A stretch of 64,000 bases of DNA from Georgenia subflava (lineage in GTDB: Bacteria; Actinomycetota; Actinomycetes; Actinomycetales; Actinomycetaceae), in NCBI RefSeq assembly GCF_009193155.1, contig NZ_VUKD01000003.1, forward strand, positions 372,001 to 436,000, read 5' to 3'. Below the pieces are notes generated by a model. The model worked only from the letters and a program-made list of their open reading frames with translations. It was not told where the DNA came from and did not search any database. Numbering within the stretch: the first letter of the stretch is position 1; every line of letters begins with the position of its first letter. Of the stretch, positions 32,252 to 34,611 are shown piece after piece. Both the position numbers and the translations under genes were made by a program.

Positions 32252-32259
32252 GTGTGCTC

Positions 32260-33108
32260 CTAGCTGCTCGGGTGATGCGTACGCGCCGCGTCACGGTTCT
32301 CGCGGACCATGGCGACGAAGAACCGGTGAACCCGCGTGTCTCCGCCGATCTCCGGGTGGAAGGCGGTCGCGAGCAGACTGCCGTGGCGAACTGCGACGAT
32401 CTTACCGCCGCCGGCCGATCCCCCGCCGGTACGGGCGAGGACCCGCACGCCCGGTCCGGTGTCCTCCACCCACGGGGCCCTGATGAAGACGGCGCGGAGG
32501 GGGGCGCCGCCGCCCGCGAGGTCCGGCGCGTCGAGCGGCCCCTCGAAGGAGTCGACCTGGCGGCCGAACGCGTTGCGCCGCACGGTCATGTCGATGCCGC
32601 CGAGGGTGCGCTGGTCCCTGGTGCCGTCCAGGACCCGGTCGGCCAGGAGGATCATGCCGGCGCAGGAGCCGTACACCGGCAGGCCCGCTGCGATGCGCTC
32701 GCGCAGGGGTTCGAAGAGGTCGAAGGTGCGCAGCAGCTTGTCGATCGTGGTGGACTCCCCGCCGGGCAGCACCAGACCGTCGACGGCGGCGAGCTCGGCC
32801 GGGCGGCGCACCGTCATCGCGGTCGCGCCGGACGCCGTCAGCGCGGCCAGGTGCTCGCGGACGTCCCCCTGGAGGGCCAAGACCCCGATGGTGGGACCGG
32901 TCGGGTCGTCGACGACGGCGTCCCGGGTGGCGGTGTCACCGACGACAGTGTCCCCTACGGCGGTGTCGCCGGCGACGGTGTCCCCGGCGACAGTGTCCCC
33001 TACGGCGGTGTCGCCGGCGACGGTGTCCCCGGCGACAGTGTCCCCTACGGCGGTGTCCCCGACGACGGTGGCACCGGCGAGAGGATCGGTCACGGCTGGG
33101 TCGGTCAC
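32260..33108 (-). CDS. pdxT: Pyridoxal 5'-phosphate synthase glutaminase subunit, with repeat extension
   Basis: PdxT releases ammonia from glutamine and channels it to PdxS for PLP synthesis. The conserved domain runs from residue 73 ([14 protein letters not shown]) to the end: GGES motif ([13 protein letters not shown]), nucleophile [14 protein letters not shown], and His-Glu of FHPEIGGD. Unusual is the N-terminus: 14 residues, then nine pentapeptides of type [AV][AV]GDT (residues 15-59) and a short linker. No ATG, GTG or TTG in frame lies between the repeats and the domain, so translation must start upstream; GTG at 33108 or 33093 are the candidates. Neither has a good ribosome site; coupling to the Nudix gene 11 bases upstream is likely. 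Confidence 0.88.
32932..33066. repeat. 15-bp codon-phased tandem repeat in the pdxT start region
   Basis: Nine 15-bp units, arranged partly as 45-bp higher-order copies, encode [10 protein letters not shown] and VAGDT words. The period is a multiple of three, so the frame stays open. Confidence 0.95.
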
Positions 33109-33119
33109 GGCTGGGCAGC

Positions 33120-33689
33120 CTACGTGCTCGGTCCGAGGACCGAGGACTCGTCCAGGTGCGGCGTCGTGCCGTCCCACCCGTCGAGGAGGGCGCGCACCAG
33201 CTCGGGCAGCGTCTCGGGATAGACGACGGTGCCCTCGGCGACCGCGGCCGCGAGCTCGTCGACGTCCCACCAACGCATCTCGTCCAGGACGTCGCGCTCG
33301 AGGTCGGTCCACCCGTCGTGGGAGAAGTCGTGGCCGGACGGCACCCGGGCGAGGAAGAACTCCTCGTCCTGGCGGCAGGTCACGCGCGCGAAGTCGAAGA
33401 CGGCGCTACGGGTCAGTACCGGTCCGACGAGGTCGGCCGGCCGGACCACGAGCCCGGTCTCCTCGAAGACCTCGCGTGTGGCGCCGTCGCGCACGTCCTC
33501 CCCCGCGTCGAGCCCGCCGCCGACGGTGAACCACCAGCTGCGGGTGACCTCGCCGGCGTCGTGGCCGCGCACGAGGAGCAGCCGGTCGTCGTCGTCGAGG
33601 ACGACGACGCGGGCGGCCCGCCGGAACGGCAGGCCGTCCTCACCCGGCTCCCAGTCGGGTCCCAGGCCGTAGGTCAGCGCGTCAGCCAT
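33120..33689 (-). CDS. Nudix hydrolase
   Basis: The 189-residue protein has a complete Nudix box at residues 58-80 (G-x5-E-x7-REVFEETGL), which binds the divalent metal and cleaves a nucleoside-diphosphate-linked substrate. The surrounding strands ([41 protein letters not shown]) are typical of the fold. Substrate cannot be told; location inside the pdxS-pdxT unit could hint at a housekeeping of phosphorylated vitamers, but that is only inference. It starts with ATG ten bases after the pdxS stop, and ends with TAG just before pdxT. Confidence 0.9.
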
Positions 33690-33699
33690 CCGCGCCGTG

Positions 33700-34611
<912 letters not shown>

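Follow-up and report, generated by a model that had tools for sequence, protein, structure and literature searches.

In the 64,000-nucleotide stretch of Georgenia subflava DNA analysed here (the window), the gene for PdxT, the glutaminase of PLP synthase, lies on the minus strand behind pdxS and a Nudix hydrolase gene, all three on a common strand and separated by small gaps, with YebC and RuvC genes following downstream (Table 1). From its sequence the catalytic domain is an ordinary PdxT: NCBIfam TIGR03800 covers residues 74-265 with 218 bits against a cut-off of 105.55, Pfam SNO matches at 9.3e-54, a PdxS partner is encoded in the same run of genes, the best Foldseek match of the predicted structure is 2nv2 (TM 0.93 normalised by target), and Cys149, His251 and Glu253, which I take to be the catalytic Cys-His-Glu triad, are invariant among 40 aligned sequences (the window together with 39 of 78 listed relatives). 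The protein thus shares both the whole domain and the partner with the PdxT, Pdx2 or SNO glutaminases of PDB entries 2nv2, 2iss, 4wxy and 8u7j; however, these enzymes usually have few residues before their first strand, whereas Georgenia subflava PdxT has 73.

Table 1. Features of the pdxT locus (positions in the window)
Feature	Position	Strand	Detail and basis
pdxS, PLP synthase lyase subunit, partner of PdxT	33700..34611	-	NCBIfam NF003215, 4.4e-159
Nudix hydrolase gene between pdxS and pdxT	33120..33689	-	Pfam NUDIX, 1.1e-19
TAGGCT, candidate TANNNT-type -10 box	33117..33122	-	8 nt before GTG 33108; its TAG doubles as the Nudix stop codon
15-bp perfect duplication giving two copies of the GTG start	33086..33115	-	TRF, 100% matches
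pdxT	32260..33108	-	282 aa, GTG start at 33108, stop at 32260; translation, TIGR03800, Pfam SNO
Second in-frame GTG of pdxT	33093	-	codon 6
Full 15-bp array with degenerate edge units (LAGAT on the leading side)	32910..33080	-	TRF and unit scores
Nine exact [AV][AV]GDT units of 15 bp each, within a 45-bp superunit	32932..33066	-	codons 15-59
PdxT glutaminase domain, from strand IGVLALQG onward	32260..32889	-	ordinary; TIGR03800, alignment, AlphaFold2, Foldseek

The first-pass annotation, made from the letters and their translation, had placed nine VVGDT-type pentapeptides ahead of the domain, and these prove exact to the base on the minus strand; its account of 45 residues encoded as exact pentapeptides by a 15-bp repeat is likewise borne out by TRF and by translation, and its figure of 72 preceding residues is correct within one, since from GTG 33108 there are 73 residues before the I of IGVLALQG and 72 before the T (from GTG 33093, 68 residues precede the I). 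In the TRF output the array appears as 10.7 copies of 15 bp (74% matches) and as 3.3 copies of 45 bp (94% matches), with extents of 32910-33079, 32910-33070 and 32931-33080, and the score of 258 for the 45-bp description is the top of 50 rows in the window. Nine consecutive [AV][AV]GDT units would have a probability of ~1e-41 given the residue frequencies of the domain and residues taken as independent, and the 219-bp leader, compared with itself, reaches an identity of 0.68 at a shift of 15 and 0.78 at a shift of 45, while the nine tested lags other than multiples of 15 give 0.17-0.41. The edge units match the array unit at 10-12 of 15 positions; because 7.8% of the catalytic-domain segments scored in the same way reach at least 9 (maximum 11), single edge units are unpersuasive and become persuasive only when taken together, and the next unit outward, AVTDP, scores 6, which is the chance level. 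Five sites vary across the nine units and two of these alter A/V, while the rare codons GTA and ACT (1.1% of Val and 1.5% of Thr codons, respectively, in the training set of the gene caller) recur with the 45-bp superunit, with three copies of each across the nine, a pattern expected from recent duplication in blocks. On the plus strand a frame is also open across the array (32254-33222) and would encode VAGDG units with an elastin-like look; this frame shows no sign of being a gene. A role for the array at the RNA level was considered and rejected, folding of the 219-nt leader being no stronger than that of shuffled sequences (z -0.82).

The question of whether these repeats reach the protein turns on where translation begins. 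The TAGGCT hexamer is the sole TANNNT on the pdxT strand within 32850-33250, and a TANNNT stands 8 nt (eight genes) or 7 nt (one gene) before a GTG in 9/9 Georgenia pdxT genes, whereas among 27,490 GTGs counted on either strand of the window plus 32 further Georgenia stretches the background is 0.10% with the hexamer 7-8 nt ahead and 0.06% with a spacing of exactly 8 nt. For M. tuberculosis, leaderless mRNAs are described with a TANNNT whose centre falls 7-12 bp ahead of the start site (PMC3898074); here the hexamer is centred ~11 nt before GTG 33108. A codon-usage gene caller written in the course of this work, which favours long frames of good codons, also picks 33108. The simplest reading is that the pdxT mRNA would be leaderless and begin at this GTG, and from such a message the ribosome would be obliged to read the array; TANNNT is a loose consensus, and this counts against the best reading. 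Among in-frame codons 1-80 the start-capable codons (ATG, GTG, TTG, CTG, ATH) are GTG 1, GTG 6, ATC 74 and TTG 77, the latter two within the first strand of the PdxT domain, in keeping with the earlier observation that no start codon lies between repeat and domain. Neither an internal promoter nor an internal start was seen between array and domain, and a scan of 32800-33300 for sigma-70 promoters and terminators returned nothing on either strand; the missing sigma-70 site also counts against the best reading. Because the -10/GTG unit lies upstream of the array, the N-terminal tail should be translated, and I regard its translation as likely; the first-pass annotation had expected as much, and the conservation of that unit strengthens the expectation.

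Considered as protein, the tail of 73 residues is acidic (net charge -13) and rich in A and V, and residues 1-72 match no Pfam or NCBIfam family. AlphaFold2 renders residues 1-72 entirely as coil, with pLDDT block means of 40-62 compared with mostly >90 for blocks of the domain, and the tail is probably disordered, although low pLDDT is weak evidence for disorder because the alignment given to the model held no homologue of the tail. A[DN]LxX-type units typify pentapeptide-repeat proteins, and the PdxT unit differs in having T where L or F is expected; this family, with its right-handed beta-helix, was rejected as a candidate, there being no such Pfam match at E up to 1 and only coil in the model. 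In PdxT, as in other Rossmann-like glutaminases, the first strand should have its N-terminus directed away from both the active site and PdxS. PLP synthase complexes have been solved with 21-33 or ~115 extra N-terminal glutaminase residues, largely unresolved: the deposited glutaminase sequences of 4wxy and 2iss carry ~33 and 21 pre-domain residues, and because their chains are resolved over 184-194 residues these extra residues are largely unseen, while in 9cca, by its database title a designed PLP synthase fused to a circumsporozoite antigen, a long foreign sequence precedes the PDX2 part (454 residues in total, PDX2 part 116-331, 182-183 resolved). The latter protein is engineered and has ~120 residues after the PDX2 part as well. 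Together, the N-terminal additions of 4wxy, 2iss and 9cca indicate that long additions are compatible with assembled complexes. Another report was set aside as evidence for tolerated tags, its fusion protein having been cut with TEV protease (PMC11237949).

Within the genus, start-to-domain leaders in the other eight Georgenia are 6-9 residues long in seven and 16 in one, and the 15-bp DNA unit occurs in this pdxT only among 9 Georgenia genomes (8 overlapping matches; 0 for the reversed control), so a genome-wide repeat family was rejected at the DNA level, the pattern having matched the pdxT array alone. A protein search with the array recovered the array itself (E 3.5e-18); beyond it there were four further hits, all marginal (E 0.003-0.008), of which one lies in the same genome. 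The first-pass annotation had proposed a search for GDT repeats in PdxT of related genera; the DNA unit is confined to this pdxT among the nine Georgenia genomes, and the arrays found in Terrabacter consist of unrelated 12-bp units. Another Georgenia, L003, carries a distinct, degenerate 19-bp array ~150-210 nt upstream of its PdxT domain and before its -10 box.

Minisatellites as such are common in this DNA. With a TRF score of at least 80 the window contains 14 arrays, a further 212 kb of the same genome contains 27, and seven congeners have 4-12 per 60 kb, a range of 4-14 arrays per 60-64 kb across the 8 Georgenia genomes (L130-L161 and the window, Georgenia alone having been sampled). When these genomes are pooled, periods divisible by three make up 37/39 of genic, 24/46 of intergenic and 5/12 of edge arrays, a division that is approximate, as it relies on a crude gene caller, and in which the intergenic fraction also exceeds one third. 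Since nearly all of the genic arrays (37/39) have such periods, the pdxT array can be viewed as a member of a class of arrays that persist in genes so long as the period keeps the frame. In-frame VNTR-like arrays are a known kind of bacterial intragenic minisatellite, and the pdxT array resembles them in its head-to-tail copies, its periods of 15 and 45 bp, both multiples of three within a reading frame, its homogeneous centre and its degenerate edges. Further arrays lie no more than 20 codons from a predicted start, for example in L158 of the same genome (7467-7566), where an in-frame array of 30 bp x 3.3 copies begins near residue 6 of a protein predicted to have 718 residues.

Beyond Georgenia, I considered 272 distinct actinobacterial pdxT loci, the number that remained after removal of 13 duplicates, with L052 (a copy of L005), G316 (gene cut by the contig end) and L010 (a second fragment of the gene in G005) excluded; the survey used strict sequence patterns, with the register of L206 provisional. 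Leaderless-like genes, meaning those with TANNNT 5-9 nt before an in-frame start, a sequence criterion that admits chance cases such as L210, number 137/272, and from their start to the first GV of the domain there are at most 10 residues in 120, 11-20 in 5, 21-45 in 10 and >45 in two. The last two are the window, at 74 residues by this measure, and L210, a doubtful case at 60 residues that has a further start 4 residues ahead of the domain. The tail of the window PdxT is the longest among these 137 genes. Tandem arrays with a TRF score of at least 45 occur within 300 nt upstream of the domain in 34/272 loci; the best array falls between start and domain in five of the 34 (L001, L066, L079, L227 and, weakly, L229, 16 bp, score 46) and before the start in 23, and because the period is divisible by three in 14 of these 23 as well, little weight can be placed on the period by itself. 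In g4, a different genus of the GTDB family to which Georgenia belongs, each of the 20 pdxT genes matched carries PR[AS]LFP in the leader, ~11-17 residues before the first strand (L171, L172, L176-L179, L181-L183, L188, L190, L194-L196, L198-L202, L207), which looks like a conserved linear motif of a non-repeat kind. Among paper titles, none was found on N-terminal extension or disorder of PdxT, on tandem repeats in Georgenia or on Terrabacter pdxT.

Terrabacter provides the parallel. A TANNNT lies exactly 6 nt before GTG or ATG in the pdxT genes of 9/9 Terrabacter genomes, and the distances from start to the first G of the domain are 36, 30, 40, 44, 36, 27, 38, 22 and 12 residues (74 in the window by the same measure). 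In three of the nine (L066/L222, L079/L223 and L227) an in-frame array occupies the segment between a leaderless-type start and the domain, as in Georgenia subflava, but the units are of 12 bp, unrelated in sequence to the Georgenia unit and different from one another, and the starts are 36-44 residues before the domain as opposed to 74. Over the domain, the eight other Terrabacter PdxT show 90-97% identity to the query, and the species with differing units 95-97%; L066, L079 and L227 have the segment flanks VSTISTI.GTTADP and ADRRA..VGVP in common, and the repeats alone differ. These three also have a GTG 3 residues before the first I of the domain that would allow a short form. Five of the nine, L228-L232, have no ATG, GTG or TTG between the upstream start and the domain, and since there is no later start codon their leader must be translated if the upstream start is correct. 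In-frame repeat growth after a leaderless-type pdxT start therefore apparently arose at least twice.

The explanation in which I have good confidence is neutral or nearly neutral growth of an in-frame minisatellite in a tolerant PdxT N-terminus that would be read from a leaderless mRNA; translation, disorder and near-neutrality are what I infer from the comparisons above. An ordinary PLP-synthase glutaminase gene, with the 5' end of its mRNA at GTG 33108, would have had as its starting state a short leader like those of 6-9 residues in 7/8 congeners and 16 in the eighth. Repeated in-frame duplication between the start codon and the first strand, of a 15-bp and then a 45-bp unit, presumably by replication slippage or unequal recombination, would then have produced the 73-residue acidic tail of net charge -13, probably disordered, which would be translated with the sole visible promoter and start upstream of it and would persist with a 15-bp period that keeps the frame and a PdxT N-terminus that tolerates variation. 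The effect on PLP synthesis would probably be none or small. Of the two possibilities that the first-pass annotation had raised, neutral in-frame growth of the repeat is the preferred one, given the frequency of arrays in the Georgenia DNA sampled, genic periods nearly always divisible by three, a unit private to one of nine genomes and Terrabacter repeats that differ between close species. A tail that alters assembly of the PdxS-PdxT complex is unsupported, PLP synthase complexes having been solved with N-terminal additions on the glutaminase.

One alternative is a functional tail. The PdxS-PdxT complex consists of 12 + 12 subunits, and twelve acidic tails might affect how soluble it is, how it assembles, which partners it binds or how well it tolerates salt, with repeat number as the tuning element; in favour of this, translation is likely, the tail combines acidity with regularity, Terrabacter too has long leaders, and PR[AS]LFP in 20/20 g4 leaders suggests that PdxT N-termini may be used. 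Nevertheless, I consider such a function unlikely: the DNA unit is private to one of nine genomes and the protein search gave only marginal matches elsewhere, no family matches the tail, and Terrabacter units differ between species with 95-97% domain identity to the query, leaving neither sequence nor length conserved. A bolder version, in which the post-start segment of leaderless actinobacterial pdxT would be a minisatellite hot spot that repeatedly rebuilds disordered tails, and copy number would tune the 24-subunit complex in its response to crowding, solubility or salt as a slow genetic dial, is a long shot.

The tail might also never be made, if pdxT were expressed from a longer pdxS-nudix read-through mRNA and initiation took place at the non-standard ATC codon 74. 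Three genes on one strand with small gaps make read-through possible and codon 74 is indeed ATC, but initiation at ATC is rare, the conserved -10/GTG unit sits upstream of the array, a standard GTG or ATG lies beside TANNNT in 9/9 Georgenia and 9/9 Terrabacter, and 5/9 Terrabacter (L228-L232) offer no ATG, GTG or TTG between start and domain, all of which makes this account very improbable. An error of assembly in the number of copies, or in the presence of the array at all, is hardly credible, even though tandem repeats are known to cause such errors (PMC6868369), which is what would favour it: the array is only 135-171 bp long and has degenerate edges and internal variants, so ordinary reads probably span it, and the Terrabacter arrays come from separate assemblies.

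With in-frame minisatellite growth as the preferred reading, the implication for GC-rich actinobacteria is that a leaderless start combined with such a repeat can add a new tail to a vitamin-biosynthesis enzyme in one lineage, and Terrabacter, as a second and apparently independent case, makes the pattern a recurrent one. Annotators are hereby warned against trimming such starts. Should the tails prove inert, this would be ordinary repeat biology; and the natural series of leader lengths on closely related PdxT enzymes provides a test of how much N-terminal extension is tolerated by PLP synthase.
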